Source: a virus. Taken from it: 59,131 nucleotides of DNA. The DNA is taken from IMG/VR virus record IMGVR_UViG_3300042542_005002, positions 1-59,131 of that record. One strand, given 5' to 3'. Within the stretch, counting starts at the first letter, position 1. Each line of letters starts with the position of its first letter. Shown here piece after piece: positions 25,520 through 58,900 of this stretch. The notes beneath the pieces were generated by a model. It saw nothing but the letters and a program-made list of their open reading frames with translations. It made no database searches and was not told the DNA's origin. The position numbers and the translations under genes were made by a program.

Positions 25520-26278
25520 ATGAGTCATATAGGAAATAATACTATTAAACTTGAAGCAAAAGTAATTTCAATGGTCGGAGATAATCTTACGGAGGAGCAA
25601 AAGCGCAGATACCTTCCCAGAAATGAATATCTTATGGGGGAATTTGTTCCGAAGATGACGAACTGTGGATTTACCACATCTTTATTCCCTGCTATCACAC
25701 CACAAGATGAAGACTTTTTGATTGAAGATAGTGTTGTCACCTACAGAAATCATCGATACACAAGAGGTAAAAATCGACAAGGCGAACTCGCATCAACATT
25801 CCAAATAGCATTGACATTAGGCCATCTTATGCTTTGGGAAGAGTCGATTGCCGAAAACAAGGCTATACTTATCCTTGAGGATGATGTCTATCTCCCAAAA
25901 GAAAACGAAGAAATTGTAAAAAATGCAATCGAAGACTTTTTATCTTGCAAAGACCCAAGAATCGAAAGAGGTATATTATACCTCCAATCTACATGTCCTT
26001 GGCGATCTGGAAAACCAAAAAAGGAATATGCGCCATGGGCATTGATGAAAAATGATTTCGGGTTATTCAGAATGGCCCCCACATGGAATGATACATCGGG
26101 TACAGCAGCATATCTAATCACACCGTCTTCCGCATCTTTTTTAGCAGAATATGTTAGAAATAGTCCACTTTGGACTCCGGATGGAATGTTTGATGATGCC
26201 AAAAGATGCGGAGCAGTTGATTTATATCTACCGAAAGAATATACAAAAAACTTTGAACTTCATCCAATTTTCGCATAA
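25520..26278 (+). CDS. Family 25 glycosyltransferase
   Basis: A 252-residue GT25-type protein. LTLGHLMLWEESIAENKAIL followed by ILEDDVYL (the EDD metal site) and GTAAYLITPSSASFL match the LPS-type galactosyltransferase family GT25. The same family contains the collagen galactosyltransferases of animals and giant viruses. The genome also encodes a Lys-rich collagen-like fibre (45515), so that fibre is a conceivable acceptor. AGGAG precedes the start. Confidence 0.82.
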   Translation: MSHIGNNTIKLEAKVISMVGDNLTEEQKRRYLPRNEYLMGEFVPKMTNCGFTTSLFPAITPQDEDFLIEDSVVTYRNHRYTRGKNRQGELASTFQIALTLGHLMLWEESIAENKAILILEDDVYLPKENEEIVKNAIEDFLSCKDPRIERGILYLQSTCPWRSGKPKKEYAPWALMKNDFGLFRMAPTWNDTSGTAAYLITPSSASFLAEYVRNSPLWTPDGMFDDAKRCGAVDLYLPKEYTKNFELHPIFA

Positions 26279-26365
26279 TTGAGAGATAAAATGAAACAAT
26301 CTAGGTGTGATAATACAGAGTTCGGATTACATTTATGACTGTATTGCAAAGTTTGGAGGTAAAAT

Positions 26366-27019
26366 ATGAATGACATGATCAAACTAACCATAGGCATACC
26401 AACAATACCCAATAGAAATAGAAGATATCTAGAACCATTGGTTTCTAAATTAATGGGTCAAGTTGGTGATGCAAGAGATATCGAAATCATTGCGCTGATG
26501 GATAATAAAATGATGTCGATTGGAAGGAAGAAGACTCTTCTTTTCAATATGGCAAGAGGTAAGTATGCTTGCATCATCGATGATGACGATGATGTTGCAG
26601 ATGATTATGTTGCGACACTCAGAAATGTAATTAACGACCAATTGAATGTCGATGTGATTTGCTATAATCAGGAAGCAGACATCAATGGTAAAAAGTGGCT
26701 AGTTAAAACTAGTCTTAATCACAACAGAAAGCACCCATTTGATCAGTTAGAAGTAGATAAGAATGGGAATACCATTCCTTGTAAAAGACCACCTTGGCAG
26801 TGGTGTGCATGGAGGACTGATTTCATTAAGACTATCCCATTTGGTGATACTAACTGGTCCGAAGATGCTGCATTTACACTTTCTGCTATAGAGGCGGCTA
26901 AAAGCGAATTAGTTATTGATAAAGTGATGTGTAAGTATCGGTACTCTCCATCAGTATCGGAGACTTACCCGCCTAAACAATCAATTGACCCTAATCAGAT
27001 GACCCGTGTAACAATTTAA
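26366..27019 (+). CDS. Family 2 glycosyltransferase
   Basis: A 217-residue GT2-type protein: KLTIGIPTIPNRNRRYLEPL, SIGRKKTLLFNMARGKYACI followed by IDDDDD (DxD), PPWQWCAWRTDFIKTI and WSEDAAFTLSAIEAA (catalytic ED region). It resembles the GT at 18771. An 87-nt gap precedes it, with GGAGG before the ATG but no clear promoter. Confidence 0.82.
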   Translation: MNDMIKLTIGIPTIPNRNRRYLEPLVSKLMGQVGDARDIEIIALMDNKMMSIGRKKTLLFNMARGKYACIIDDDDDVADDYVATLRNVINDQLNVDVICYNQEADINGKKWLVKTSLNHNRKHPFDQLEVDKNGNTIPCKRPPWQWCAWRTDFIKTIPFGDTNWSEDAAFTLSAIEAAKSELVIDKVMCKYRYSPSVSETYPPKQSIDPNQMTRVTI

Positions 27020-27021
27020 AC

Positions 27022-27726
27022 ATGAAAATTCATATTAGTTATGCTCATGGACGGTATTTGAGATCTCAAGATCATTGCACAAAAACTGCATTAGATCATG
27101 GATTTGACATATCGATTCCATACAGAATAGGAGATATAGATTCGCAGTTCGTAAACACGAACGCATATACCTTTTCTCAACCAAGAGGAGCAGGGTATTG
27201 GATATGGAAACCATATTTAATTCTCAAAACCATGGAGAAAATGAACTCTGATGATTGGTTGATGTATACTGATTCCGGAATGTATTTTGTTCGTAATCCT
27301 TGGGAATGGATTTTGCCCATGGAGAATCAAATTGGAGAAAAGGGAATAGTCACATTTGGTTGCTGTGGAAGAGCCAGACAGTTTACAAAAAGAGATGCAT
27401 TTGTTTTGATGGGGCAAGACGAACCAAAATACACAGATTCAATTGATGAAGATCAGAGAATGGCTAGTGTATTTGTTTGCAAGAAAACTCCATTCTCAGT
27501 GGAATTCGTCAAGGAGTGGTTAAAGTATTGTTGCGACTCTAGAATCTTGACCGACTTACCAAATACACAAAAATTACCCAATTATCCTGAATTCAGGGAT
27601 CACAGGCACGATCAAGCCATCATGAGTCTACTTTGCATCAAGTATGATACTTTCTTGGTCAAAGAAGACATTACGCAGTTCAGTAACTCTAACCCATATT
27701 TAATTCATCATAGAAACCCAAATTGA
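27022..27726 (+). CDS. Glycosyltransferase-like protein
   Basis: A 234-residue protein with RGAGYWIWKPYLIL, WLMYTDSGMYFVRN (TDSG replacing DxD) and a late HDQAIMSLL. This set is seen in poorly studied glycosyltransferase-like proteins of capsule and LPS clusters. No signal peptide is evident. It follows the GT2 gene by 2 nt, so it is co-translated with it. Confidence 0.68.
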   Translation: MKIHISYAHGRYLRSQDHCTKTALDHGFDISIPYRIGDIDSQFVNTNAYTFSQPRGAGYWIWKPYLILKTMEKMNSDDWLMYTDSGMYFVRNPWEWILPMENQIGEKGIVTFGCCGRARQFTKRDAFVLMGQDEPKYTDSIDEDQRMASVFVCKKTPFSVEFVKEWLKYCCDSRILTDLPNTQKLPNYPEFRDHRHDQAIMSLLCIKYDTFLVKEDITQFSNSNPYLIHHRNPN

Positions 27727-27739
27727 AAGGAAATTCACA

Positions 27740-28312
27740 ATGGAACACATCTACAACATGCCAAATTTTGGTCAAAACTGGTTCACTTATCCAAAATTAT
27801 ATTCTTGGTTCGTGCATCAAATGGAAAATGGTTCAAGAATAGTTGAAGTTGGTGCATGGAAAGGAAAGAGCATTGCTTACCTAGCAGTGGAAGTTATTAA
27901 CTCAGGTAAAGATATCAAAATCGATGCAGTCGATACATGGGAGGGATCGCTTGAAGAGATTGACCATCTTCAGGATGTTTATGTTAAAACGGGGAGACTG
28001 TATCAATTATTTTTGTCCAATATCGCTCCTGTTTCTAGTGTTGTGAATCCTGTAAAGATGAAGTCTGTGGATGCTGCTAAGATGTACGAAGATAATTCTA
28101 TCGATGTTGTATTCATCGATGCTTGCCACACATACGAGTGTGTCAAGGAGGACATTCTTGCATGGTATCCAAAAGTTAAAGTTGGTGGTTACATATCAGG
28201 ACACGATTACTCTTGGAGCGATGATGTTCGTAGGGCAGTTGACGAAACACTTAAGGAACTTGGTAAGATCGATGAAACCGAGGGGTGTTTTGTGATGAAG
28301 AAATTATCATAA
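27740..28312 (+). CDS. Class I methyltransferase, copy A
   Basis: A 190-residue AdoMet-dependent methyltransferase of the Methyltransf_24 type. IVEVGAWKGKSIAYLAVEV is the AdoMet loop, IDAVDTW follows, and DVVFIDACHTYECVKEDILAW is the acidic catalytic/metal region. Such enzymes methylate sugars or small molecules in glycan clusters. The gene at 28435 is a clear paralogue sharing MEHIY, NWF, PKLYS, KGKS and FIDACH. AAGGAA lies before the ATG. Confidence 0.82.
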   Translation: MEHIYNMPNFGQNWFTYPKLYSWFVHQMENGSRIVEVGAWKGKSIAYLAVEVINSGKDIKIDAVDTWEGSLEEIDHLQDVYVKTGRLYQLFLSNIAPVSSVVNPVKMKSVDAAKMYEDNSIDVVFIDACHTYECVKEDILAWYPKVKVGGYISGHDYSWSDDVRRAVDETLKELGKIDETEGCFVMKKLS

Positions 28313-28319
28313 TATCTGA

Positions 28320-28347
28320 TTGACTTTATAACATAAGTGACTACAAT
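28320..28347 (+). promoter_or_regulatory. Early promoter, now driving a gene 41 remnant
   Basis: TTGACT (28320-28325), 16-bp spacer, TACAAT (28342-28347). Transcription would start near 28354, one base before an ATG (28355) that opens a 23-codon copy of the gene 41 start. It probably now drives methyltransferase copy B. Confidence 0.75.
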
Positions 28348-28354
28348 AACTAAA

Positions 28355-28426
28355 ATGCCAAACGACAAGATCGAATTCGTTGTACTTCGTAACTTGTTGT
28401 ACAATGAAGATTATACAAGATCATAA
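28355..28426 (+). pseudogene. Remnant of the gene 41 5' end
   Basis: A 23-codon frame (MPNDKIEFVVLRNLLYNEDY, then TRS and stop) that repeats the helicase N terminus and then breaks off. Bases 28364-28420 match 29050-29106 at 56 of 57 positions. It keeps its own promoter and near-leaderless ATG. The near-identity at silent positions points to a recent event. Confidence 0.85.
28364..28420 (+). repeat. 57-bp direct repeat, copy 1
   Basis: Upstream copy of the gene 41 start. It flanks methyltransferase copy B together with 29050-29106. The single difference is G28369 versus A29055. Recombination between the copies would delete the methyltransferase gene and leave gene 41 intact. Confidence 0.93.
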
Positions 28427-28434
28427 GGATTAAC

Positions 28435-28995
28435 ATGGAACACATTTACGAACAACCACAATTTGGCGAAAACTGGTTTTCATTTCCCAAACTCTACTCT
28501 CGCTTTGTTCATGAACTTTCAAGTGGGTCAAAGATTGTTGAAGTTGGCTGTTGGAAGGGAAAGAGTTTGGCTTATCTAGGCGTAGAAATTGTCAACTCGG
28601 GAAAATCGATTTCCGTAGATGCGGTGGATACATGGGATGCATTGGATACTGAGTATTATCACAAGACAGATACCTATGTGTTGTCGAAATGCTTGTACCC
28701 ACTATTTCTGAGCAACATCGCTCGTCTGAGCCACATCATTAAGCCCGTTCGAATGAAGTCTTTGGACGCTGCAAACCTATACGAAAATGAATCATTGGAT
28801 GTAGTCTTCATTGACGCATGTCACGAATACGAGTGTGTCAAGGAGGACATCAATGCATGGCTACCGAAGGTGAAGAAAAATGGCTATCTATCGGGACATG
28901 ATTACAGTAGCCATCCATCTGTTGCTCAGGCAGTACACGAACTGCTTGGCTCAGTTGAGAGTGGTGAAAATTGTTGGGTCTATCGAAAGCCTTGA
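28435..28995 (+). CDS. Class I methyltransferase, copy B
   Basis: A 186-residue paralogue of the gene at 27740, with IVEVGCWKGKSLAYLGVEI, VDAVDTW and DVVFIDACHEYECVKEDINAW. The two proteins have diverged much more than the 57-bp repeats that flank this gene, so this copy probably arrived separately rather than by recent duplication of copy A. AAGGA (28425-28429) serves as ribosome binding site. Likely role: methylation of a glycan or small molecule. Confidence 0.82.
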   Translation: MEHIYEQPQFGENWFSFPKLYSRFVHELSSGSKIVEVGCWKGKSLAYLGVEIVNSGKSISVDAVDTWDALDTEYYHKTDTYVLSKCLYPLFLSNIARLSHIIKPVRMKSLDAANLYENESLDVVFIDACHEYECVKEDINAWLPKVKKNGYLSGHDYSSHPSVAQAVHELLGSVESGENCWVYRKP

Positions 28996-29004
28996 TAAAT
29001 CCCC

Positions 29005-29033
29005 TTGCTTTTTGTGTGTTAATGTGGTATAAT
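29005..29033 (+). promoter_or_regulatory. Promoter of gene 41
   Basis: TTGCTT (29005-29010), 17-bp spacer, TATAAT (29028-29033). Transcription should start near 29040. The ATG at 29032 overlaps the -10 box and cannot be used from this promoter; ATG 29044 leaves a leader of about 4 nt. Confidence 0.75.
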
Positions 29034-29043
29034 GATGGAATCC

Positions 29044-30456
29044 ATGACAGACAAAATCGAATTCGTTGTACTTCGTAACTTGTTGTACAATGAAGATTAT
29101 ACAAGAAGAGTTCTGCCCTTCCTAAAGAAGGAGTACTTCCATGACCCATGTGAGAGAAGACTATTTGAATGTGTTGAAGAATTCATTCAGAAGTATTCCT
29201 CTTCTCCAACTACAGAAGCGTTGAATATCATTCTCTCCGAGCAAGATGGCGTTTCTCAGGGTGAATATGACAATTGCACAAAGATTCTTGATTCACTTAA
29301 TCAATGCAAAGATACACAGAATGAAATCGACTGGCTGATCGACCAAACTGAAAAGTTTTGTAAAGATAAAGCAGTTTACAATGCATTAATGGATTCTATC
29401 CAACTACTTGATGAAAAGAAGTCGAAGGGAAAGTCAAGGAATGCAATTCCAGAAATTCTCACTAAAGCATTGAGCGTTTCATTTGATGCTAGTATTGGTC
29501 ATGACTTCGTTGAGGATGCAGACAAAAGATTTGAATTCTATCATCGGGTAGAGCAAAAGACTCCTTTTGATTTGGACTATTTGAACAAAATTACAAATGG
29601 TGGAGTTCCAAACAAAACTCTAAATGTGATCCTTGCGGGTACAGGTGTAGGTAAGAGTCTGTTCATGTGTCATCATGCAGCGTACTGTTTGACCATGAGT
29701 AAGAATGTCCTGTACATTACATGCGAAATGGCGGAAGAAAGAATCGCAGAAAGAATTGATGCAAATCTAATGGATATTGCGGTCGATGATCTCAAGTCTC
29801 TTCCGAAAGACATTTACGACAAGAAATTATCAAAAATTTCATCGGGAATGACCGGCAAATTAATTATCAAGGAATATCCAACAGCAACGGCGAGTGTTGA
29901 CCATTTCCGTCATTTACTAGATGAACTTAGACTCAAGAAGAACTTCAAACCCGATGTCGTTTTCATAGACTATCTTAATATTTGTGCCTCTAGTAGATTT
30001 AAAGCGGGTGCGAATGTTAACTCCTACACCTATATCAAGGCAATCGCTGAAGAACTAAGAGGACTTGCAGTTCAATTGGACTTCCCTATCTTCACCGCAA
30101 CACAAACGAATAGATCGGGATTTTCAAATACTGATGTGGAACTAACTGATACATCGGAGTCATTCGGTCTACCAGCAACAGCGGATTTGATGTTTGCTAT
30201 TATTGCAACCGAGCAACTTGATGAGTCGGGACAAATCATGGTGAAGCAACTAAAGAACAGATATAATGATCCAACTCTTCACCGAAGATTCATTTTAGGT
30301 ATTGACAGATCTAAGATGAAACTGTATGATGTGCAAGAAGATGACCAAGTACTGTTTGAGCAAATGGGAAAGGGATCAGAATCTGTCGATGATGAGGAAG
30401 ACATGAGTAAGTTCAAAATCAAGAAGCCCAGATCTTTGTCAGGTTGGGGAGAATAA
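29044..30456 (+). CDS. 41: Replicative DNA helicase, T4 gp41 homologue
   Basis: A 470-residue DnaB-type hexameric helicase that unwinds the fork and works with primase gp61. Walker A is ILAGTGVGKS (about residues 196-205), VVFIDYLNI is Walker B, and TATQTNRSG is the family H3-type motif. The start is ATG 29044 (MTDKIEFVVLRN), supported by the conserved remnant at 28355, whose peptide has the same register, and by promoter geometry. Codons 3-21 are duplicated upstream as a 57-bp repeat. Confidence 0.96.
   Translation: MTDKIEFVVLRNLLYNEDYTRRVLPFLKKEYFHDPCERRLFECVEEFIQKYSSSPTTEALNIILSEQDGVSQGEYDNCTKILDSLNQCKDTQNEIDWLIDQTEKFCKDKAVYNALMDSIQLLDEKKSKGKSRNAIPEILTKALSVSFDASIGHDFVEDADKRFEFYHRVEQKTPFDLDYLNKITNGGVPNKTLNVILAGTGVGKSLFMCHHAAYCLTMSKNVLYITCEMAEERIAERIDANLMDIAVDDLKSLPKDIYDKKLSKISSGMTGKLIIKEYPTATASVDHFRHLLDELRLKKNFKPDVVFIDYLNICASSRFKAGANVNSYTYIKAIAEELRGLAVQLDFPIFTATQTNRSGFSNTDVELTDTSESFGLPATADLMFAIIATEQLDESGQIMVKQLKNRYNDPTLHRRFILGIDRSKMKLYDVQEDDQVLFEQMGKGSESVDDEEDMSKFKIKKPRSLSGWGE
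29050..29106 (+). repeat. 57-bp direct repeat, copy 2
   Basis: Functional copy within the 5' end of gene 41. It is paired with 28364-28420, 56 of 57 bases identical. Confidence 0.93.
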
Positions 30457-30457
30457 A

Positions 30458-30709
30458 ATGCCTTACAGAATTCACATTGACATTCCGATTGAATCTGTTA
30501 GCGTTGACGATGCTCAGATTGAAGCAAAGGACATTCTCGCAAAGTTAGGAATTCTGATTGCAGATAATCCTCAATTGATAGGATCTGACTTGGAAATCAA
30601 CTACAGACTTGGACATGATGATGATCGACAGCGTTCGAACTATCTTGACATGGATAAAATGGGCCATTGCACCCACAGGAAAAACCGTGTCAAATTCGCA
30701 AATGGGTAA
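30458..30709 (+). CDS. Unknown small protein
   Basis: An 83-residue protein: an N-terminal beta strand (YRIHIDIPIESVSV), an Ala/Glu helix and a polar C terminus with HDDDRQRSNY and CTHRKNR. No family is recognised. It lies 1 nt after the gene 41 stop and overlaps the next gene by 8 nt, so it is likely co-expressed with the helicase. Confidence 0.7.
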   Translation: MPYRIHIDIPIESVSVDDAQIEAKDILAKLGILIADNPQLIGSDLEINYRLGHDDDRQRSNYLDMDKMGHCTHRKNRVKFANG

Positions 30710-30956
30710 TGGAGAGTGTCCATCTTGCCCTAAATGTGGCTGTGCAACAATTCGTTCACGGCAAGATCTTTCTTTCGAAATTGGTGGTGGAGAAATTAGA
30801 ACAGAACCTTTAGTTAGTGCCACAATTGTCATGAATGTTCCGATCTTTCAATGTATAAATCCTAGTTGTAGGAACGGAATGTATGGAGAAGAAGCAGAAA
30901 AAATCATGGAGCCTATAAAGAAAGTATTGACAAAACACGCAGTAGTTAAAAGTTAA
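30702..30956 (+). CDS. Small zinc-ribbon-like protein
   Basis: An 84-residue protein from ATG 30702. CPSCPKCGC near the N terminus and CINPSC about 45 residues later give two Cys clusters typical of a zinc ribbon. It has an alternating beta middle and a helical Lys-rich tail. Possible roles are nucleic-acid or transcription-factor binding, neither proven. An earlier in-frame start at 30609 would overlap the previous gene by 100 nt and is less likely. Confidence 0.7.
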   Translation: MGNGECPSCPKCGCATIRSRQDLSFEIGGGEIRTEPLVSATIVMNVPIFQCINPSCRNGMYGEEAEKIMEPIKKVLTKHAVVKS

Positions 30957-30961
30957 AATTT

Positions 30962-31031
30962 GTGCCGTGGGAGGTCAGCATCTCAGGTCGGCTTATACCC
31001 GAGCAACACAAGGGCAGCACTTGTACGGCAT
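30962..31031 (+). ncRNA. tRNA-like cloverleaf with non-canonical T loop
   Basis: A 70-nt segment folds as a tRNA. The acceptor is 7 bp (30962-30968 with 31025-31031, first pair G-U). The D stem is 4 bp (30971-30974 with 30981-30984). The anticodon stem is 4 bp (30988-30991 with 30999-31002) around a 7-nt loop CTTATAC with T33 and apparent anticodon TAT (Ile). A 5-bp T stem (31008-31012 with 31020-31024) has loop GGCAGCA. It lacks T8, the D-loop GG and TTC of the T loop, so it is not a normal tRNA. It may be a decayed tRNA-Ile or a tRNA mimic. Confidence 0.4.
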
Positions 31032-31076
31032 ATTAAGATAGTTTATATCTCGCTTCAGGCGAACAGAAACAACAGA

Positions 31077-31083
31077 ATAAATA
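31077..31083 (+). promoter_or_regulatory. Late promoter box ATAAATA
   Basis: The late box is followed by a 25-nt leader to ATG 31109, with a weak GGAAT/GGGAAT site. It starts the operon of likely head-packaged enzymes. A TTGACT at 31085 has no matching -10 box. Confidence 0.6.
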
Positions 31084-31108
31084 ATTGACTAACCCAAAGG
31101 AATAGGGA

Positions 31109-32323
31109 ATGCTGTCATTTACACAATACAATCATGAGATAATCCAAGAGGAAACTGCTAGAAATAAACACTTGGATCATATCGAAGATTTGATGATCCT
31201 TTACGGACAAAAGGGATTAGATGACTCAATAGCATTCCTCAAGGATATAATCGAAAGCCTAAAAACCGGAAATACTAGTTTGGGAGTTTCCACCAAATGG
31301 GATGGGAAGCCTGCAATCATTTGTGGCGAAAACCCTGATAATGGTAAATTCTTCGTATCGACAAAGTCTGTTTTCGGTGCTAAAGAGCAAAAAGCATATC
31401 ATACGGAGGCTGAACTTAAAAAATCTGGATTGCCTTCTGATTTGATTGATAAGATGGCAGTGTGTTTGAAAATGCTTACTAAGGTTGGTATTGGCAAGAG
31501 AATTTTGCAAGGCGATTTGATGTTTACTGCCGATATGAAAAAGGCAGTAAATATCGATGGTAAGCCACATATAGGATTTCAGCCAAACACAATCATGTAC
31601 GCTGTTCCAAAGAATAGTGATATTGGGTCGGCAATCTCTTCAGCAAAATTAGGAATCGCATTTCATACTGAATATAAGGGAGACAGTCTGAAGTCTATTC
31701 AGGCAGTATCTTATAATTTCAATTCCAAGGTTTTAAAACAAACAAGTGAGGTTTGGGTAACAGATCCAAACATCTACGATCTCTCTCCTGCCCTTATGAA
31801 GGGCGGCGAATCAGAGATGGCAATCAGGATGCTCAAGGAATGCGAAGCCCTAGCATCTAAAGTGAGGCCGTTTATCAAGACTCTAATCGCACAGAAAGAG
31901 ATAGCAGAAACTTATTTACTGCCTTATGTCAATAGTACAATCAATGGCGGAATGAGCAATTTCAATGCATCCAGTCTCAAACTAAACATCAAAGGTAAGT
32001 TTGAAAAGGACATAAATAAACTAAAAACCGACAAAGCCAAGCAAGCAAAAACTGAATTAATGCAGAAGCAATTAGATTTCGTTGATGCGTATTCAAAGCA
32101 GATCGATCAAATGTTTGAACTTCACAATAAAATTGCCAACATCAAAGAAATTCTTTTGCGTAAACTGTATGCCATTTCAACCCTAGGTCATTTCTTCATG
32201 GATGAGAATGGAATTCGCCCAACAAATCCTGAAGGTATTGTAATCTATCGATCAGGATCGGTGATTAAACTAGTTAATCGTTTAGAATTTAGTAAACAAA
32301 ACCGAATGGTGAATCAGAGGTAA
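31109..32323 (+). CDS. Ligase-superfamily nucleotidyltransferase, possibly head-packaged
   Basis: A 404-residue protein with motifs of the covalent nucleotidyltransferase (DNA/RNA ligase) superfamily: STKWDGKPAI (KxDG, K63), ILQGDLMF (motif III-like, about 132-139), EGIVIY (motif IV, from about 375) and VIKLVNR (motif V). Similar proteins (DUF6267-like, from memory) occur in marine T4-like phages. The N terminus MLSFTQYNHEIIQE, followed by Glu, resembles T4 internal-protein targeting peptides cut after L/I-x-E. The product may seal nucleic acids or adenylylate another target. It is one base apart from the next gene. Confidence 0.68.
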   Translation: MLSFTQYNHEIIQEETARNKHLDHIEDLMILYGQKGLDDSIAFLKDIIESLKTGNTSLGVSTKWDGKPAIICGENPDNGKFFVSTKSVFGAKEQKAYHTEAELKKSGLPSDLIDKMAVCLKMLTKVGIGKRILQGDLMFTADMKKAVNIDGKPHIGFQPNTIMYAVPKNSDIGSAISSAKLGIAFHTEYKGDSLKSIQAVSYNFNSKVLKQTSEVWVTDPNIYDLSPALMKGGESEMAIRMLKECEALASKVRPFIKTLIAQKEIAETYLLPYVNSTINGGMSNFNASSLKLNIKGKFEKDINKLKTDKAKQAKTELMQKQLDFVDAYSKQIDQMFELHNKIANIKEILLRKLYAISTLGHFFMDENGIRPTNPEGIVIYRSGSVIKLVNRLEFSKQNRMVNQR

Positions 32324-32324
32324 A

Positions 32325-35300
32325 ATGCTTAACTTCTCAGACCGCAATAATCAGATTGATGAAGCGAAAAAAGATAGTGTAGTTTTTGCATTCGGTAGAA
32401 TGAACCCACCAACTATCGGCCATAAGGTAGTTGTGGATAAAGTTCTAAGTGAAGCCGCAGCAAAGGGAGCAGATCATTTTATCTTTGTGTCTAAAACTCA
32501 GGACACCAAAAAAAATCCACTCAGTCAAAAGTCAAAGATCGATTATCTGAAGAAGTTGTTTCCGAAGGTTAAGTTTCCTTTTGGTAAATCGACAAATCCA
32601 TTCGATACTGTTTTGTATCTCTGTGAACTAGGATATAAAAACATCTATGTGGTCACAGGAAGTGATCATGTTGCAGAATACAACCGTATTAAGGAATACA
32701 AAGGTAAAGTAGCGACAAACGATCCAAAAAAGCGGTCGTACTCATTTGATAATCTTGAGGTCATAGTTGCAGGCAAGGCAAGAGTTAAAGTTACTCTTGA
32801 TATGATAGATGATATGCTCAAGAAGGGTCAACAAGTTGATCCTATGTACATGTCTGCATCTCTTATGCGTGAAGCGGCATTTAAGGACCGATTTGATATA
32901 TTCTCAATCGGCATTCCTGGAAATAAAACTCTTGCACAGAGTTTATGGAAAGATGTTCGTAAAGGTATGAGTTTGAAAGAGGACTTTGATCTTTTAAATG
33001 AGGCAACCAAAAAAGAGGATGTGACAATCATCGCTCTCACATCATCAGAAAAAGATTTGAGTGATACCATAGAAAAAACTGAAGCGATCTGCAAAAGGCG
33101 TAAGATAAAATTCTATCCTGTAAAAACAAGCAAAGCACAGGTAGAAATATCAAATGTCGCTTCGAAGAAGATTACTATAAAGAACTACGATGGAGAGGGA
33201 AAAGATGTAACCATCGTTCCAGAGAACACAGTTGCAATCGTTCGTGGTGGTGTGATGAACACCGAAATTGGTGTAGCCATTATGACGATCTTACAGAATA
33301 ATGGTGTGTTCATGGTAAACGAAAGAGCGGGTATGGAACTGTGTGCCAATAAGTTGGAAACGGCTATCGCACTCAAGAAACACGGTTTGCCTCACCCACG
33401 CACGGCTTTCGTCGCAAATGAAGAGAATATCGAATCGGCTGTCAAGGAAGTCGGAGGTAAGTTTCCGATCATCTGTAAGACCCTTACAGGCGCAGAAGGA
33501 ATCGGTGTGTCCAAAATTGAGAGCATGGAAAGTCTCAAGTCTGTGCTACAGACATTATGGAAGTATGGTGCAGAGATCATCATCCAAGAGTTTCTTCCTG
33601 AATTCAAGAATGATGTTCGTAGCATAGTACTCAACGGGAAGATATTTGCATGTGCCAAAAGAGACAAAGCACCTAAAGACTTCCGAACCAATATTGCCCG
33701 TGGCTCTAAGGGCGGATCACATCAATTGTCTGACGAAGAGATTAAACTAGTTGAGCAAGCCGCACGGGTCAGTAAATGTTTCTATGTTGGTATAGACCAT
33801 GTTATCAACGATGGTAAGCCATACATCATTGAAATGAACGCAAGTCCAGGTAGTGGAAATATCTATTATCGTTACTATGAGGATGGCGAAGGTAAAGATA
33901 ATGTTAAAGGTGAAGAACTTGTAGAAGACTTTGTGGAATACATTCTCAACAAGGCACATTGGAAACTATTTTCGAATCTTGCTGTTCGTGAGAATGTTAA
34001 GGTCGATGGCAATGAATATACCGCAAAGATCGATACTGGAAATAGCGGTTACAATATGATTCATGCCGACAACATAAAAGATAATGGTGACCACACCGTT
34101 TCATTTAAGTTAGCAGACGGTAAGAAGATTACGAAGAAGATTGTCAGCAGAATCAAAGTTAAGAGTGGCATCGGGGAGAAAGAAAGAATTGTGGTTTTCA
34201 TGGACATTGAGTTCCATGGTAAGAGATATCCGAACATCAAATTCAGCCTTGGTGACAGAAACCATATGTCAACCAAGGTTCTTCTTGGACTGAGATTCCT
34301 TGAGAAGACTGGCTATGTTGTTGATCCAGCAAACGCAATATATCCACAACCAGATGTCAAGAAAAAAACATCAGGGGAAGAGGAAGAAGAAGAGGAACTA
34401 TCTGAAAGTATCATTCCTAAAGGCAAAGCAAATATTGCGGGTGCCTTATTTAAAGTGATGACCACTAAAGAAATGGTTGGGAAAATATTTGAACTATCCA
34501 AACTGTGGAAATCCAACTCAGTTGAGTTCAAGAAAAAACTACAGGATCTTGAGACAGAAATAGTGATTGACTACAATAAGTCTTTAGAAACGGGAGCAAA
34601 AACTGCTTTTTTTGTAGATAGATTCAAGTTACAGAGTATCATTGATAAGATTTTGTATAAAATGCTTGATGTCGCTGGTGTAGATTTACAGACATATGTG
34701 GCTAAATTGTCTTCAGTATTTGGATCTCAATTAACCATGGGATATTCAATCGACGGAGAATCAATACAAGAAGCCGATATTACTAAGGGGAAAAAATTCT
34801 ACACGAAGAGTGGAAAGATTAAGGCATCCCCAAAAGATAAAAAGACTGGATTGCCAAAGAAGTATGTCTCTGGATTATCGAAGCGAGAGGCTGAACTTCG
34901 AAAGAAGAGACTTGCAAAGCGTAAGGATATGTCAGATGACGATCCGAAGACTTGGGAGTTTGTTAATCCTAGAGAAAAGAATATCAAGACTAAACCTTCG
35001 AAATATACGACTGCTTTCAAGAAACTTGCCAAAAAAGGTAAATTGAAGGTAGAAAACAAAAATGAAATAAGAGAGTCTCTTTCTGCTATTAAGGCATTTG
35101 AGAATCTTGATTATATGACGAGAATGAACAGAGCCATAATGCTTGAGCAAAAGGCGATTCAAAACGGTAAAACAGATTCCGCAAAAATTTACCGATCATT
35201 TATAGAATATGAAAAGGACTTAAGATATAGAAATTACAAAGTTGATTTAGATATATCTGAAGAAATAGAATCTCTTCTTTATGAGGTGAGTCCTCCATCT

Positions 35301-36038
35301 GGTCCTGCTCGTCGCTTTTCAAAGAAGGAAAAAATTAAAAAGCAGTTTCAGAAGAGATACGGTAAAGACTGGAAAAGAGTTTTCTACGCTACAGCATGGA
35401 AGATGCACGGAGAGGAAGTAGAGTCCACCCGATGGCTTAATGAATCGAAGAAGATCAATGCAACCATGCAATGGACTGCTATCGGTAAGAGGGGACCTCT
35501 TCTGATCGGCTCTGACGAAATCGTCAAGACCTACAAGAAAGACACCCCTGGTGAGCGGGAGCGATTGGGTGAAGATAAGCCTTGTTGGGTAGGGTTTAAA
35601 CAATTGGGAATGAAGACAAAGAATGGAAAAAAAGTTCCTAATTGTGTGCCTGTGAAGGAAGATACTTCTGAAGAAGAGAAGTCTGCGCTTTACAAAGAGT
35701 GGCAGAAATTAGTGAATATGTCCGGCAAAGAAATACAAAGTTTTCTTGACTCAGAAGAGGGTAAAGAGGCAGGACTATCACGAAAAGAAGCAGGCAAGGC
35801 AGGAGCAGATGGGGGTAAAATTACAAGTGGAAGAGATTCTGCCCGGGCCATTATTCGTATGCTTGATACTCCCAAAGAGGACTGGACGGCAAATGATTGG
35901 AAATGGGCGAGTAAGCAAGTCAGTTTCATCAGTAGAATGCAAGGTGTGAAGGGCGGTATGAGGGATGAGAAAGGTCATCCAACCCGAAAACTTCTTGCTC
36001 TGAAAGTTTGGGGTCATAATCCGGAGAGGAAATCATGA
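32325..36038 (+). CDS. Multidomain protein: nucleotidyltransferase, RimK-type ATP-grasp ligase, retropepsin-like protease
   Basis: A 1237-residue protein. Residues 15-200 are an NMNAT/cytidylyltransferase-like domain (FGRMNPPTIGH, TGSDHV). Residues 232-545 are a RimK-type ATP-grasp ligase (NERAGMELCANK, FPIICKTLTGAEGIGV, IIEMNASPGSG). Residues 557-660 are a retropepsin-like domain (KIDTGNSGY, D570; VLLGLRFLE). An acidic linker follows. Residues 995-1030 match a phage KKQFQKRYGKDWKRVFYATA domain, and 1140-1237 a DUF6321-like domain. Residues 1-13 (MLNFSDRNNQIDE) look like a head-targeting peptide. L/I-x-E sites fall at several domain borders (226, 694, 987, 1040), suggesting a polyprotein cut by the prohead protease. 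Confidence 0.75.
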   Translation: MLNFSDRNNQIDEAKKDSVVFAFGRMNPPTIGHKVVVDKVLSEAAAKGADHFIFVSKTQDTKKNPLSQKSKIDYLKKLFPKVKFPFGKSTNPFDTVLYLCELGYKNIYVVTGSDHVAEYNRIKEYKGKVATNDPKKRSYSFDNLEVIVAGKARVKVTLDMIDDMLKKGQQVDPMYMSASLMREAAFKDRFDIFSIGIPGNKTLAQSLWKDVRKGMSLKEDFDLLNEATKKEDVTIIALTSSEKDLSDTIEKTEAICKRRKIKFYPVKTSKAQVEISNVASKKITIKNYDGEGKDVTIVPENTVAIVRGGVMNTEIGVAIMTILQNNGVFMVNERAGMELCANKLETAIALKKHGLPHPRTAFVANEENIESAVKEVGGKFPIICKTLTGAEGIGVSKIESMESLKSVLQTLWKYGAEIIIQEFLPEFKNDVRSIVLNGKIFACAKRDKAPKDFRTNIARGSKGGSHQLSDEEIKLVEQAARVSKCFYVGIDHVINDGKPYIIEMNASPGSGNIYYRYYEDGEGKDNVKGEELVEDFVEYILNKAHWKLFSNLAVRENVKVDGNEYTAKIDTGNSGYNMIHADNIKDNGDHTVSFKLADGKKITKKIVSRIKVKSGIGEKERIVVFMDIEFHGKRYPNIKFSLGDRNHMSTKVLLGLRFLEKTGYVVDPANAIYPQPDVKKKTSGEEEEEEELSESIIPKGKANIAGALFKVMTTKEMVGKIFELSKLWKSNSVEFKKKLQDLETEIVIDYNKSLETGAKTAFFVDRFKLQSIIDKILYKMLDVAGVDLQTYVAKLSSVFGSQLTMGYSIDGESIQEADITKGKKFYTKSGKIKASPKDKKTGLPKKYVSGLSKREAELRKKRLAKRKDMSDDDPKTWEFVNPREKNIKTKPSKYTTAFKKLAKKGKLKVENKNEIRESLSAIKAFENLDYMTRMNRAIMLEQKAIQNGKTDSAKIYRSFIEYEKDLRYRNYKVDLDISEEIESLLYEVSPPSGPARRFSKKEKIKKQFQKRYGKDWKRVFYATAWKMHGEEVESTRWLNESKKINATMQWTAIGKRGPLLIGSDEIVKTYKKDTPGERERLGEDKPCWVGFKQLGMKTKNGKKVPNCVPVKEDTSEEEKSALYKEWQKLVNMSGKEIQSFLDSEEGKEAGLSRKEAGKAGADGGKITSGRDSARAIIRMLDTPKEDWTANDWKWASKQVSFISRMQGVKGGMRDEKGHPTRKLLALKVWGHNPERKS

Positions 36039-43456: not shown

Positions 43457-44482
43457 ATGGCGCAGTTCATAGACACCAAGTTTATAAACTTACTGTCCCC
43501 GAGACTTGAGCGGTTTCACTGGAAGAAGCCAAATTTGGCGACATGCCGCTGCCCCATCTGCGGGGATTCGGCAAAAAACAAACGAAAAGTTCGATTTTAT
43601 TTCTATGAGAAGAATGGCAATTTCTTCGTTAGATGCCACAACTGCGATTACGGAACAACTCTAGGCGGACTACTTCGTTACTTAGATGGTAATCTTTACA
43701 GACAGTACTCATTTGAAAATCTAAAAGACAAAGAGAGCGGCAAATCCTTCACCAAAAGGATCATTGCTGTGAAGCAAGATATCGTTTTGCCTGAGAATGA
43801 AGTTCTCAACAAGATGCCAAAATTGTCAAACCTGTCTAACTCGCATCCTGCTGTTGTTTGGGCCAAAGACCGAAAAATTCCTAAGTCAAAACTTAATTTA
43901 CTTCATTACGCAGAGAACTTTGCTGAATGTGTATCTGATATTGATCCTGATGCAAAAGTGGGGGATGACCAAAGAATCGTAATACCCATTTTTTCAAGAG
44001 GGGGGTCTCTTGTCGGAGTGCAGGGTAGAGTTCTTGATAAAAGCCAAGGCAGGAACATTAGATATTTGACGATCAAGGCAAATAAAGAAGGAGAACGGCT
44101 TTGGTATGGACTTGAGAGAATAGATCCGGATAAACCTCTGATAGTTGTTGAGGGTCCGATTGATAGTTTGTTTCTATCGAATAGTGTGGCAATGCTGGGT
44201 CTGTCAGATCCACTAAACATTCCTGTTGGAGTTCCAACAGATAAATTGGTATATGCTCTTGATAATGAACCTAGAAACAAACAAGTCGTGGATGCTGTGG
44301 CAAATCTCATAGATGCAGGTAGATCTGTTTGCATTTGGGATTCTAGAGTTGGTGGAATCAAAGATATCAATGACATGATTCTTAGCGGAATTCACGCTGC
44401 TCAAATTGAATCGATAGTGAGAGAACGAACACTATCAGGACTTTCTGCTAAACTTGCCTTGGAGTCATGGAAGCGTGTCTAA
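43457..44482 (+). CDS. 61: DNA primase, T4 gp61 homologue
   Basis: A 341-residue primase that makes RNA primers on the lagging strand with gp41. The N-terminal zinc site is C32-PI-C35 and C60-HN-C63. A TOPRIM-type catalytic core is seen around IVVEGPIDSLF (about residue 231), then YALDNEPRN, with acidic DIND near the end. Length matches T4 gp61 (342). The predicted leaderless start parallels gene 41. Its stop lies in a late box. Confidence 0.94.
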   Translation: MAQFIDTKFINLLSPRLERFHWKKPNLATCRCPICGDSAKNKRKVRFYFYEKNGNFFVRCHNCDYGTTLGGLLRYLDGNLYRQYSFENLKDKESGKSFTKRIIAVKQDIVLPENEVLNKMPKLSNLSNSHPAVVWAKDRKIPKSKLNLLHYAENFAECVSDIDPDAKVGDDQRIVIPIFSRGGSLVGVQGRVLDKSQGRNIRYLTIKANKEGERLWYGLERIDPDKPLIVVEGPIDSLFLSNSVAMLGLSDPLNIPVGVPTDKLVYALDNEPRNKQVVDAVANLIDAGRSVCIWDSRVGGIKDINDMILSGIHAAQIESIVRERTLSGLSAKLALESWKRV

Positions 44483-45514: not shown

Positions 45515-47515
<2,001 letters not shown>

Positions 47516-52346: not shown

Positions 52347-53501
52347 ATGCCAGGACCAGGAGAATTTAATCCCCCCGCAACACCCGCTGATGGCGAAGGA
52401 TACACATTTGGTGGTGTTGAATGGAAGTTTGACGCACAATTTGGCGTTTGGAACATTGCTGAAGGTACAATCATCGGTGGTATAGGACCGCCGGGTCCGG
52501 TTGGTCCTGCTGGTCCTCCGGGTGCGGGTGGGCCTCCTGGTCCTGCTGCTGTTGGTGGTGTCACGGGAATTGGTTTTGGTGATGATATTGGTTTGACTGG
52601 AAAGATCAACCTGACTGCTGCTTCCAATTCAGGAATTTCAATTAGTCAAAGTTCTAGAACAATAACTTTCAGTAATACGGGTATCACGGGGGTTAGGGCT
52701 AAAAATGCTAGTGCAGCCGGGGATTTTATTCACACTGGACTTTTAACTATAACCGGTGGAAATGCTGTAAGTGTATTGAGTACAAGCACTGGCATAATCA
52801 ATATTGATCTTAAGTCAGGAGTCACTGGTGATACAGTAGTTGCAGGATACGGTATTGATGTTGTTGCTGACGGCAAAACAAAGACAATCAACAATACGGG
52901 TGTCACCAGTTTCAATGGATTGACAGGTTCAATCGTTGCAGGACAAACTGGATGTGTTGTTTTCAGACACACAAGCGGCCAATTAACTGGCAGCACAGAG
53001 TTCCAATATGATGGACTTGGACTAACTTACACAAGTAGTAGAATTCGTATAGCAAATACAAATTTGAATTTAACCGTTACTGGTCCAAATATAACATTAG
53101 GACAACAAACGCAAATCACTGGTGGTATATTTACAAATCCTGCTGAAAAATGTGCGTCTTTTGTTGTTACTGCCGATGACCTTGTAATTAATGGTGCGTC
53201 AGGATCAATTCAAAGATTTACAGTTACTCCATCAAATAGAGTTACTATTAAAGCAGGAACTGGATGGAACACAACAACTGATGGTGCCACCGAAACAATT
53301 GCAGTAATTGTTAAATGGGGCGGTGGATATTTAACTGGTTCATTTGATAATACGATCATATCAGGAAATCCCGTTTTGTTTGGGGTTACAGGTGGAATTG
53401 AAATGTTTACCCTCATGCGTGTAAACATGGCAGGCGCAGGGTTAACCATGGGACTCCCGATTGCGAATGGACTGACTGGAAGAAACTATAACTGGACTTG
53501 A
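52347..53501 (+). CDS. Modular tail-fibre protein with short collagen-like stretch
   Basis: A 384-residue fibre. Residues 1-45 (MPGPGEFNPPATPADGEGYT) include a domain seen at the start of phage fibres. Then about 8 Gly-X-Y-like triplets (GPPGPVGPAGPPGAGGPPGP) lead to a VTGIGFGDDIGLTGKINLTA module. After this come ITFSNTGITGVRAKNASA and GDTVVAGYGIDVVADGKTKT, all nearly repeated in the last gene. A beta-rich C-terminal domain completes it. The shared modules suggest recent exchange between fibre genes. Confidence 0.82.
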   Translation: MPGPGEFNPPATPADGEGYTFGGVEWKFDAQFGVWNIAEGTIIGGIGPPGPVGPAGPPGAGGPPGPAAVGGVTGIGFGDDIGLTGKINLTAASNSGISISQSSRTITFSNTGITGVRAKNASAAGDFIHTGLLTITGGNAVSVLSTSTGIINIDLKSGVTGDTVVAGYGIDVVADGKTKTINNTGVTSFNGLTGSIVAGQTGCVVFRHTSGQLTGSTEFQYDGLGLTYTSSRIRIANTNLNLTVTGPNITLGQQTQITGGIFTNPAEKCASFVVTADDLVINGASGSIQRFTVTPSNRVTIKAGTGWNTTTDGATETIAVIVKWGGGYLTGSFDNTIISGNPVLFGVTGGIEMFTLMRVNMAGAGLTMGLPIANGLTGRNYNWT

Positions 53502-53516
53502 TACGGAGATAAATTA

Positions 53517-55883
53517 ATGGGATTTGCTTGGCACAAACTTTATAAAATTGTAGTAGATTCCGTAACAGGGGAAATTTGGTGCATTCCTAATGGTTATACC
53601 TGTGTTGGACCAGTAACCTCTGGAGAATTTTGTTATACCACAGGCTATGGAGTTGGTGGAATAACTGACTCCGGTGGAATTGGTGTGGGCGTAATCACAG
53701 GAGATCTTGAAACTATATGCGTGACAGTCACAGGTCAATCATGTACATTGGGATTTGGAGATGGCATCAGCGGTTTTATTAGTAGAACTGTTCTTCCTTG
53801 GATGTGGCAGACATCGTCTGGAAGATGGCATGATGGTGGCGCAGGCGATGCAGCGAGTATTGAAGTACATGCAAGAATGAATGAAAAACCTTGGTGTCCA
53901 ATTGATGTTCGATTTGAAACGCCAAGGTCATGTTGGAGAGCAAATGCTGTTGGGCAAAGTGGTGGAGTTTTTTGTCACACAGATTTACAGACCGCAGACG
54001 GCGGTATTCCATTTTACTTAAGAAGTCCATCCTCTCCTAGTTCTATTCCAGGACTAATAAATCTTCAGCGAGTTTCGCTACATTGGTATGAAACTCTTTT
54101 ATGGCCGAAAGGAACAACTTTTGGCGGTGGTGAGCCATACTCTTTGAATCATCAGTTTATAGAACGAAAAAATACAAGTTGTCAACAAAGAATACTTGTA
54201 GTTTCTGGCTACAACAGAGAGCATTTCGTGGGTCCATATGTTCCTGGTGTCGGATGTAGTCTATATGGAATAACTGCCTTTAATAAAGGAATTATAGATG
54301 GAAATCAATTAGAGAGAGCAGGCGGCGGTCTAGGTGGAGGAAACGGAAAAATTGCTAGAAATACTTTAGTTTACGGTTCAACTACAGGATCGTCAATATT
54401 AGAATTTTTTGACCCTTTAGTTAATACCGATTATGTTCGTGGCGTGACTGGCATTAAGGCTTTGGAAGAATCTCTCGGCAGATCCTTCCCGCTCTCTCAC
54501 GATGTACTAGCATTCCCATTGTTTGGTGGATGGAATTATGTTAATTATTCACCAACAGGATCAACACAAGCCTGTTATGAGGGGGCAGATTGTGGTCCAG
54601 TTGAGTGTGAAGAAAACATGGGGTGCAGACGAGCAACATGTGCACGGTGCAATTATCCACCTGATCCTTGGACGGGAGTAGGTCACTATACTCCATATAT
54701 TGCATTCTCAAATCAGTCTGGAACAGATCCGTCTTTTGGTCCATATGGACTTTATTGTGGGTGTACAGGTGCAGCGTTAACACAGGGTCACCCAATATGC
54801 CCAGGACACACATCGACTCATAGAGGCGATGGCAGAGGAATAGGTCCGTTCTCATTTGCATGTTTCAATGCACACGGATATTTCAACTCAACAGGCGTTG
54901 GAGATTCTTATTATCACGAATCACCAGATGTTGGAAATCAAGGAATTCCAGTATGTTCGGTTTGGTCACTCTTGCATGCAATATACTATAGAATTCATGC
55001 AGATATAGCATATTTACATGGATCTGCAAACGCAAGTAAACATCTTCATTATAATATCACACCAGATTCTTGGAAAAATCTAGATCCATCAGGTCTAACA
55101 GGATTTACTGGAGATTTCCAAATGGTTCGCCATGTGATGGAAAGGGTATCTGATGCTGTGATGAATCAGGGGCTATCAAGAGATTATACAGATCCTTTAG
55201 GCGGTGGTGCAACAGCAACAACGGGAGGTCTTGGATCGAACATCGGTGGTAAACGATCTCAGGGAACCAATTACGGTCCAAACTGGAGTTTCGTTTATCC
55301 AAATGTTTTCCTTTGGGATAAGGATGCATATCTGGCAGCAGGAACCAACGAAGATAAATGGAAACACCTGTATGTCATAGGAAATTCAAACATCATCTAT
55401 GATAGCCAAGTGAGTCGCCCATTGTATAGAGATGATGGATCTTCATACACAGGAAGTTCATATACAGCCCTAATAGAACTAGATGAATGTTCACACGAAG
55501 CAGTACCAGGAAGTACACATAATGCTAGATTCATTGGGTTTGGTTCCGCTGATAATAGTGGACATACATCAGGTCCAGCGCAAATATCTTTCAAATTACT
55601 ATCCTATCCTGTTGCATGTGGAACTGGAACGGATGAAAATAATTACTATGAAACTTATTGTAATGATCTAGATGATTTATGTGACGAGTTCTGTAATAAT
55701 CCCAATACATGGCTTTCTTACTCTGATGCGGAGGTGTGCCGTCAATGTCGAGATCAGGCTGAAAACTGTCCCAATTGGGTCTTGAATCAAGGAAATTTTC
55801 AAAGGTATAGATGGGATCCTGATGGTAGTGGTGCGGTAGTTCAGACTGCCGTCTATGGAAGTTGTGGCCTCACAAGTTTATAA
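53517..55883 (+). CDS. Large cysteine-rich virion protein
   Basis: A 788-residue protein of no family I recognise. It is rich in Gly, Tyr, Trp, His and especially Cys. Cys clusters lie at CEENMGCRRATCARCNYPPD and near the C terminus (CNDLDDLCDEFCNN, CRQCRDQAENC). Many His-rich segments (SLLHAIYYRIHADIAYLHGS, KHLHYN) could bind metal. It lies between fibre genes, so it may be a baseplate or fibre component held by metal ions or disulfides. No signal peptide is evident. Its stop overlaps a TATAAATT late-like box. Confidence 0.75.
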   Translation: MGFAWHKLYKIVVDSVTGEIWCIPNGYTCVGPVTSGEFCYTTGYGVGGITDSGGIGVGVITGDLETICVTVTGQSCTLGFGDGISGFISRTVLPWMWQTSSGRWHDGGAGDAASIEVHARMNEKPWCPIDVRFETPRSCWRANAVGQSGGVFCHTDLQTADGGIPFYLRSPSSPSSIPGLINLQRVSLHWYETLLWPKGTTFGGGEPYSLNHQFIERKNTSCQQRILVVSGYNREHFVGPYVPGVGCSLYGITAFNKGIIDGNQLERAGGGLGGGNGKIARNTLVYGSTTGSSILEFFDPLVNTDYVRGVTGIKALEESLGRSFPLSHDVLAFPLFGGWNYVNYSPTGSTQACYEGADCGPVECEENMGCRRATCARCNYPPDPWTGVGHYTPYIAFSNQSGTDPSFGPYGLYCGCTGAALTQGHPICPGHTSTHRGDGRGIGPFSFACFNAHGYFNSTGVGDSYYHESPDVGNQGIPVCSVWSLLHAIYYRIHADIAYLHGSANASKHLHYNITPDSWKNLDPSGLTGFTGDFQMVRHVMERVSDAVMNQGLSRDYTDPLGGGATATTGGLGSNIGGKRSQGTNYGPNWSFVYPNVFLWDKDAYLAAGTNEDKWKHLYVIGNSNIIYDSQVSRPLYRDDGSSYTGSSYTALIELDECSHEAVPGSTHNARFIGFGSADNSGHTSGPAQISFKLLSYPVACGTGTDENNYYETYCNDLDDLCDEFCNNPNTWLSYSDAEVCRQCRDQAENCPNWVLNQGNFQRYRWDPDGSGAVVQTAVYGSCGLTSL

Positions 55884-55899
55884 ATTTGATCAATTGATC
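55879..55899 (+). promoter_or_regulatory. Late-like box TATAAATT and a 12-bp palindrome
   Basis: TATAAATT (55879-55886) differs from the T4 late consensus only at the last base and overlaps the TAA stop (55881-55883). GATCAATTGATC (55888-55899) is a perfect palindrome just downstream. Both lie in the leader of the last fibre gene. Confidence 0.5.
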
Positions 55900-55933
55900 T
55901 AGCATAATTAATTAATGGAGAATAGTCTGAATA

Positions 55934-58900
55934 ATGGCCCGTGACGAATACATTCGCATATACAGATCAAGCACACCAGGCGCAGAACCCTCATTAACTT
56001 CAGGGGAAATTGCAGCAAATCTGGTTGACAACAAACTATTTGTTGGTGGAACCAACGGATCTCTTATTACATTTTATGCAGACGGAATGACGGGGGTTAT
56101 AACTGGTGGAGTGGCAACAGATGTTGTGCGAACGGGAAATGAAATAAGAATAGACAATACTGGTGTAGTGGAGTTCAATGGTATAGTCGGAGGGGCGACT
56201 CTTACTGGTGACTCAGGTGCTGTTCAAGGTAAAGGTAACAATAGAATCACAGTTCGTATTGCATCCGATGCATTAACAGGTGTTGCTTCGTTTGATCCTA
56301 GTCACTTTACAGTTGGTACTTCAGGGCATGTAAGAAGTAAAGGTGTCATAACAATTAATAATCAGGCACCCGATGCAAATGGTAATTTTGAAGTTGCATC
56401 TTCAACAACTACAGTGAATGGTGTCACAGGAATTGGTTTTGGTAATGACATTGGTTTGACTGGAAAGATCAACCTGACTGCTGGTTCAGGAATTTCAATC
56501 AGTCAAAGTTCTAGAACAATAACTTTCAGTAATACGGGTATTACGGGGGTTAGGGCTAAAAGTAATAGTGCTCCTGATGATTTTATTCACACTGGACTTT
56601 TAGTTATAACTGGTGGAAATGCTGTAAGTGTATTGAGTACAAACACAAATCAGATAAGTATTGATCTTAAGTCAGGATACCAAGTCACAGGTGATACAGT
56701 AGTTGCAGGATACGGTATTGATGTTGTTTCTAGCAACAACCAAAAGACAATCAACAACAGAGGTGTCACCAGTTTCAATGGATTGACAGGGAATGTTACT
56801 TTAACTGGTGATGGTCAAGCGATTCAAGGTAAAGGTAACAATACGATTACTGCTCGTATTGCAACTACTGCGTTAACTGGTGTTGCTTCATTTGATCCTA
56901 GTCACTTTACAGTTGGTAGTACAGGACATGTAAGAAGCAAAGGTGTCATAACTATTAATGGATCCTCACCTGATGTAGATGGTAATTTTACAGTTGCATC
57001 TGCTACTGTTGTTACAGGTGATGGTGGTGCAATTCAAGGTAAATCAGATGCTTATATTACTGCTCGTATTGCAACTACTGCGTTAACTGGTGTTGCTTCA
57101 TTTGATCCTATATTCTTTGGTATTGGTGCTTCAGGACATGTTCTACTTGCTTCAGGATACCAAGTCACTGGTGATACAGTTGTTGCAGGATACGGTATCA
57201 ATATTGTTTCTAGCAACAACCAAAAGACAATCAACAACAGAGGTGTCACCAGTTTCAATGGTTTGACTGGTAATGTCACTTTAACTGGTGACGGTCAAGC
57301 GATTCAAGGTAAAGGTAACAATACGATCACAGTTCGTGAAGCAACCAATTCTCTAACTGGTGTTGCTTCATTCAACTCAAATCACTTCAGCGTAGTAAGT
57401 GGTGCAGTAAGTCTTGCTTCAGGAGTCACTGGTGATACAGTTGTTGCAGGATACGGTATTGATGTTGTTGCTGACGGCAAAACAAAGACAATCAACAACA
57501 GAGGTGTTACTAGTTTCAATGGATTGACAGGGAATGTTACTTTAACTGGTGACTCAGGTGCTGTTCAAGGTAAAGGTAACAATAGAATCACAGTTCGTAT
57601 TGCATCCGATGCATTAACTGGTGTTGCTTCATTTGATCCTAGATTCTTTGGTATTGGTGCTTCAGGACATGTTCTACTTGCTTCAGCATACCAAGTCACT
57701 GGTGATACAGTAGTTGCAGGAGACAATATTACAATAACAAGAGATGGTAACTCAGTTACTGTAAATTCAAATTCTGCATCTTCAACAACTATAGTAAATG
57801 GTGTCACAGGAATTGGTTTTGGTAATGACATTGGTTTGACTGGAAAGATCAACCTGACTGCTGGTTCAGGAATTTCAATTAGTCAAAGTTCTAACACAAT
57901 AACTTTCAGGGGTATTACTTCGTTCTACGGTCTAACTGGTCCCACCAGTGGAAATTTCCCAAAAGGAATTTCGGGAGCAGGACAAACTGGTGATCGTTTG
58001 CTCATCGCCACAGGACCACCAGCAGATCCATTTAGAAATTACATAAGATTTGGAAATGCGTGGTTCCAAACAGGTGTTGTAGGAACTCAATCGAACAATG
58101 TTCGTATTGCATCCGATGCATTAACAGGTGTTGCTTCATTTGATCCTAGATTCTTCGGTATTGGTGCTTCAGGACATGTTCTACTTGCTTCAGAGTATCA
58201 AGTCACAGGTGATACAGTTGTTGCAGGATACGGTATCAATATTGTTTCTAGCAACAACCAAAAGACAATCAACAACAGAGGTGTAACAAGTTTCAATGGA
58301 TTGACAGGGAATGTTACTTTAACTGGTGACGGTCAAGCGATTCAAGGTAAAGGTAACAATACGATAACAGTTCGTGAAGCGTCAACATCAGTTACAGGTG
58401 TTGCTTCATTCAACTCAAGTCACTTCAGCGTATCAAATGGTGCAGTAAGTCTTAAGTCAGAGTATCAAGTCACTGGTGATACAGTAGTTGCAGGATACGG
58501 TATCAATATTGTTGCTAGTAACAACCAAAAGACAATCAACAACAGAGGTGTCACCAGTTTCAATGGATTGACAGGGAATGTCACTTTAACTGGTGATGGT
58601 CAAGCAGTTCAAGGTAAACTTAATAATACGATAACAGTTCGTGAAGCGTCAACATCGGTCACAGGTGTTGCTTCATTCAACTCAAATCACTTCAGCGTAT
58701 CAAATGGTGCAGTAAGTCTTAAGTCAGAGTATCAAGTCACTGGTGATACAGTTGTTGCGGGATACGGTATTGATGTTGTTGCTAGCAACAACCAAAAGAC
58801 AATCAACAACAGAGGTGTTACTAGTTTCAATGGTCTTACTGGTAATGTCACTTTAACTGGCGACTCAGGTGCTGTTCAAGGTAAAGGCAACAATAGAATC

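Follow-up and report, generated by a model that had tools for sequence, protein, structure and literature searches.

A methyltransferase gene probably captured together with a promoter at the start of the gp41-like helicase gene of an uncultivated T4-like virus

The window, by which we mean the whole stretch of 59,131 bases analysed here, is an uncultivated virus record of the IMG/VR type with a T4-like gene set. Its gp41-type DnaB helicase matches the T4-type profile phrog_19 over the whole protein (residues 1-449), and among cultured phages it is closest to those of Methylophilales phage Melnitz (62%), cyanophages and pelagiphage HTVC008M. Upstream of the helicase gene lie two genes of the Methyltransf_24 family, copies A and B, scoring 71.1 and 69.4 bits against a cut-off of 26.3, in a neighbourhood of genes for an epimerase, UDP-galactopyranose mutase and glycosyltransferases. 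The locus consists of two in-register units, each composed of a methyltransferase gene, a promoter-like site and a gp41 start (Table 1). The units, 27740-28420 and 28435-29106, can be aligned end to end with about 66% DNA identity, and near-identity is confined to their last 57 nt. No terminator-like sites or stem-loops were found in 27000-31200. The only long open reading frame in the 686-bp block is the Methyltransf_24 gene; an endonuclease is absent, and self-mobility of the block is thus not indicated.

Table 1. Features of the methyltransferase-gp41 locus, with positions in the window
Feature	Coordinates	Strand	Evidence
Methyltransferase copy A, Methyltransf_24, 190 aa, resident	27740..28312	+	Pfam PF13578 E=1.7e-19; 89% aa to L141
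P1, type-1 promoter-like site, TTGACT-16-TACAAT, original gp41 promoter	28320..28347	+	score 10/12
23-codon remnant ORF, original gp41 start (MPNDK...)	28355..28426	+	translation; L141 match
Repeat copy 1	28364..28420	+	repeat finder
Left junction and Shine-Dalgarno-like AAGGA for copy B	28421..28434	+	gp41 homology stops at 28420
Methyltransferase copy B, Methyltransf_24, 186 aa, probably acquired, intact	28435..28995	+	Pfam PF13578 E=5.8e-19
P2, type-2 promoter-like site, TTGCTT-17-TATAAT, before gp41, probably acquired with copy B	29005..29033	+	score 9/12
gp41-like DnaB replicative helicase, rebuilt start (MTDK...)	29044..30456	+	phrog_19 E=5.9e-126
Repeat copy 2, with native gp41 codons fused to a foreign start within about 5 codons	29050..29106	+	repeat finder, start comparison

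The first-pass annotation had described a methyltransferase gene with a second promoter between two copies of a 57-bp repeat, and both the repeat and the interposed gene with P2 were recovered here. The repeat finder returned a two-copy family of 57 nt with 98% identity (56/57) and a spacing of 686. The sole mismatch is at position 6 (GACAAG in one copy, GACAAA in the other), so that 51 nt are perfect between the copies. Since the gp41 starts of the nearest relatives, L004 and L141, match the repeat at just 40-44 of the 57 positions, identity at 56 of 57 is neither chance nor background divergence and points to a recent duplication or conversion. Both repeat copies occur with the same spacing in two other IMG/VR records, one of which (L083) has 10 differences from the window in 14,420 bp, none within the repeats or copy B, while the other (L084) is identical to it over 4,082 bp. 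All records with the two-copy arrangement belong to one population (at least 99.9% identical), and they thus represent one event, without an independent replicate. For the single-copy, excised form, an exact-pattern search for the conserved repeat core in viral contigs gave two-copy records only. Similarly, a second gp41 start was found at 0 of 102 other gp41 loci, some of them redundant and each with at least 300 nt upstream; the best control score was 34, versus 109 in the window.

In the nearest clade, gp41 is preceded by its own sigma-70-like promoter, without a Shine-Dalgarno sequence, and the -10 box lies 6-11 nt before the start codon. Two types of promoter and start can be distinguished. 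Type 1 (TTGACT..., 7-8 nt to the start codon, mostly MPNDK, MSTDK or MTTDK, body IELVVLRNLLYN) is found on the nearest gp41 genes, which are 84-94% identical to the window (L003, L004, L141, L132, and L135). Type 2 (TTGCNTT..., 10-11 nt to a start reading ATGAC-GACAA, body IELIILRSLLHR) is found on gp41 genes that are 72-75% identical to the window (L099, L087, L089, L090, and L146). In the upstream copy of the window, the type-1 promoter sits 7 nt from ATGCCAAAC, and in the downstream copy the type-2 promoter sits 10 nt from ATGACAGACAA. Both copies encode the type-1 body VVLRNLLYN; type-2 genes encode IILRSLLHR. The downstream copy has a type-2 promoter and start, with the start codons changed to MTDK from MPNDK, but a type-1 body, and it is thus a hybrid, in which a donor segment was joined to the resident gene in the first few codons. 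An ATG at 29032 overlaps the -10 box of P2, which makes 29044 the likelier gp41 start. Elsewhere in the window, the genes at 307-849 and 43457-44482 lack a Shine-Dalgarno sequence and have a strong sigma-70-like promoter, with 6-7 nt between the end of the -10 box and the ATG; they are possible cases of leaderless transcripts besides gp41.

The upstream copy, recognized at first pass as a 23-codon remnant with its own promoter and found as such here, reads MPNDKIEFVVLRNLLYNEDYTRS before its stop codon. Its first 21 nt are identical to gp41 of L141, its end is 8 nt from the start codon of copy B, and its stop codon (28424-28426) overlaps the AAGGA site of that gene. This copy is of type 1 throughout, in promoter, start and body, as are the gp41 genes nearest to the window. 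The comparison with relatives thus fixes the direction of the event: the remnant is the original gp41 start and did not arise as a by-product of the insert.

A relative without copy B, the comparison proposed at first pass, is available in L141, where the site is unoccupied and gp41 is intact. The gene order there is glycosyltransferases, copy A, promoter, gp41, and the upstream genes are 77% identical to the window over 26322-28414. Copy A directly precedes gp41, with TTGACT-16-TACAAT seven bases before ATGCCAAACGACAAG, that is, with the same P1 type and MPNDK start as the upstream copy of the window. The insert thus lies between two genes that adjoin in the relative. Two other genomes, L003 and L004, have gp41 proteins 94% and 90% identical to that of the window and lack both methyltransferases; their alignments to the window start at 29047 and 29050, and upstream of gp41 they have an epimerase gene and a methyltransferase-like gene of another kind. 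The gp41 genes of the window and L003 share about 55-73% identity over their first 300 nt and 90-100% beyond, which suggests that this part of gp41 has recombined further. In L132, the 3' part of the methyltransferase gene is nearly identical to L141, the middle part is 60-80% identical, and the gene is out of frame; this mosaic is further evidence that the locus recombines. The first 830 positions of L132 join the 3' end of an epimerase gene to a scrap resembling a glycosyltransferase 3' end, followed by the out-of-frame methyltransferase mosaic, and appear to be another recombination scar of the same locus. Elsewhere this edge of gp41 is taken by other genes, as in Melnitz, where a 2OG-Fe oxygenase gene is upstream of gp41.

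The two methyltransferases, with about 66% DNA identity, are far more diverged than the 57-bp repeats beside them, as the first-pass annotation had pointed out. A tree of 35 family members places copy A with L141 (support 100/99) and copy B not with copy A but with the upstream methyltransferase of L090 (support 100/99); a clade of A and B is rejected by the AU test (p-AU 0.0008). The L090 relative is 79% identical to copy B over 106 aa and stands in tandem with a second methyltransferase, after which come a P2-like promoter and the start ATGACGGACAAG. When a close donor was sought for copy B, nothing nearer was found than these 79% at the protein level, measured on the overlapping part of a relative that ends at a contig edge. 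The GC content of copy B is 43.3%, compared with 38.7-39.1% in its neighbours copy A and gp41, and its GC3 is 0.44 (mean 0.35, sd 0.07); this slightly higher GC content weakly backs a foreign origin. Members of the family stand directly before gp41 in many contigs, and donor and recipient therefore probably had the same layout, from which the register of the two units follows.

The neighbouring epimerase, UDP-galactopyranose mutase and glycosyltransferase genes suggest a glycan as the substrate of copy B, and we infer a role in O-methylation of a sugar or glycoprotein. No solved structure matched copy B by sequence. The PHROG label 'DNA methyltransferase' (phrog_2675) was dropped, as the match covers about 150 of 599 profile positions; it is also disfavoured by the generic nature of the Pfam family and by the sugar-nucleotide and glycosyltransferase genes nearby.

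We consider it probable that a segment comprising methyltransferase B, the type-2 promoter and the first gp41 codons was captured from a related lineage by non-allelic recombination and entered the resident gp41 gene at its 5' end. The capture probably took place during co-infection. The right joint would have formed by homology in the conserved GACAARATCGAA (codons 2-6), whereas the left joint, which shows no homology, would follow codon 22 in a second copy of gp41. Such an exchange would bring in about 686 bp and duplicate some 51-57 bp from the start of the helicase gene, which lie on both sides of the insert, 686 bp apart, because the two joints fall at different points of gp41. The proposal made at first pass, insertion at the helicase start while restoring it, is therefore supported, given the empty site in L141, the foreign copy B and promoter, and the native body in both repeats, with the refinement that the restoration was inexact, as the promoter and start are foreign.

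A two-step history would leave the same appearance: a tandem duplication of the methyltransferase, promoter and gp41 start, followed by replacement of the second methyltransferase and promoter by a diverged allele via homologous recombination. It would account for the alignment of the two units in register over their full length, and it has counterparts in the tandem methyltransferases of L090, which lack a gp41 remnant, and in the L132 methyltransferase recombined between lineages. However, two events are needed where one suffices, the register also follows from a donor with the same layout, and the second unit has a foreign gene (copy B), promoter (P2) and start codons, with no trace of a duplicated copy A or P1; we thus regard this history as unlikely. 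A further reading, compatible with the insertion history, takes the remnant for more than a mere scar, namely for a leader peptide or RNA selected to regulate methyltransferase B. The promoter 7 nt upstream of the remnant ATG and the overlap of its stop codon with the Shine-Dalgarno site of copy B agree with it, but the remnant is present in one population only, without variation for testing constraint, and the idea seems to us quite doubtful. Plain divergence after an old tandem duplication, in which the methyltransferases drifted while gene conversion or selection preserved the identity of the 57-bp repeats, is very improbable: repeats 686 bp apart could conceivably be homogenised in a recombining phage, but the clade of A and B is rejected, two lineage types are represented among the promoters and start codons, and L141, the closest relative to have copy A, carries that copy only. 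Least credible is an assembly artefact or chimera, which a metagenomic contig might suggest and which the first-pass annotation had named as grounds for abandoning its proposal, since the junctions are common to three records, one with 10 differences elsewhere, and a normal short read is longer than the 57-bp repeat.

After the proposed capture, P2 with the acquired start would transcribe gp41, and P1 would transcribe the remnant together with copy B. The old promoter and start presumably supply transcription to methyltransferase B and perhaps translational coupling, which is possible because the remnant stop codon overlaps AAGGA. Joining the sequence in silico across the repeats removes 686 bp and yields an intact type-1 gp41 of 471 aa starting with MPNDK under P1, which is the arrangement of L141. 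Excision by recombination between the repeats is a prediction, and a testable one: methyltransferase B would be lost across the 57-bp repeat and the older promoter restored.

The arrangement can be compared with several known systems. Morons, described by Hendrix and co-workers, are genes that entered between phage genes and have transcription signals of their own. Like a moron, copy B is an extra gene, perhaps of slightly different composition, between two genes adjacent in a relative, and it came with a promoter. Unlike in a moron, the promoter brought in lies behind the new gene and now would drive the downstream core gene, the old core promoter precedes the newcomer, there is no terminator, and the coding start of the target gene is duplicated. 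Promoter-linked shuffling is already known in T4-like phages from PeSLs, mobile regulatory cassettes of T4-type phages (Arbiol 2010 and Comeau 2014, as cited in PMC4503421). In both cases a promoter-carrying sequence beside a gene is a place of exchange for modules. As outlined in that source, however, the PeSL is an intergenic element of an early promoter and a stem-loop terminator, whereas here the sites are promoter-like, no stem-loop or terminator was found, and it is the 5' coding part of gp41 that supplies the shared homology. Insertion at the upstream edge of gp41 is also seen in S-SRM01 (NC_070963), where a homing endonuclease gene and the gp41 start share 14 nt; the 686-bp block, in contrast, contains no endonuclease. 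In the ORFanage region of cyanophage S-PM2, where gene loss is described and mis-packaging was proposed (PMC4503421), flexible genes of a T4-like aquatic phage can likewise be gained and lost as a block; no mention of repeats was found in that account of gene loss. Our finding is a single well-resolved example of known modular gene gain, moron-like and promoter-carrying, and not a new system.

The locus bears on a question often raised, namely how lytic phages can take up accessory genes next to essential ones while avoiding a lethal intermediate. Sequence comparison identifies the unoccupied site, both types of promoter and start, the lineage of copy B with its donor-type relative, the native gp41 body in each repeat, and the scar, so that the likely path of exchange is readable in one place, as a snapshot of gene gain in a T4-like phage without loss of an essential gene. 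More tentatively, the promoter with the first gp41 codons might be a portable, nearly leaderless start unit and a recurrent docking place for gene gain in this clade: donor segments ending in promoter, ATG and GACAARATCGAA could land there while gp41 stays working and the displaced start becomes the leader of the new gene.

Several other features of the record were observed. The 666-aa protein encoded at 45515-47515 contains long stretches of collagen-like Gly-X-Y repeats, and the same record has a Glyco_transf_25 gene (25520-26278), a family that elsewhere includes collagen galactosyltransferases. In 52800-59125 there are many direct repeats of 60-300 nt (65-96%) in the last 3 kb, which also match parts of 48.8-52.9 kb. 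No long open reading frame is listed in these last 3 kb, although the repeats derive from coding regions; perhaps an open frame runs off the contig end. Finally, the 1,237-aa open reading frame at 32325-36038 fuses cytidyltransferase-like, RimK-like ATP-grasp and zinc-protease-like regions.
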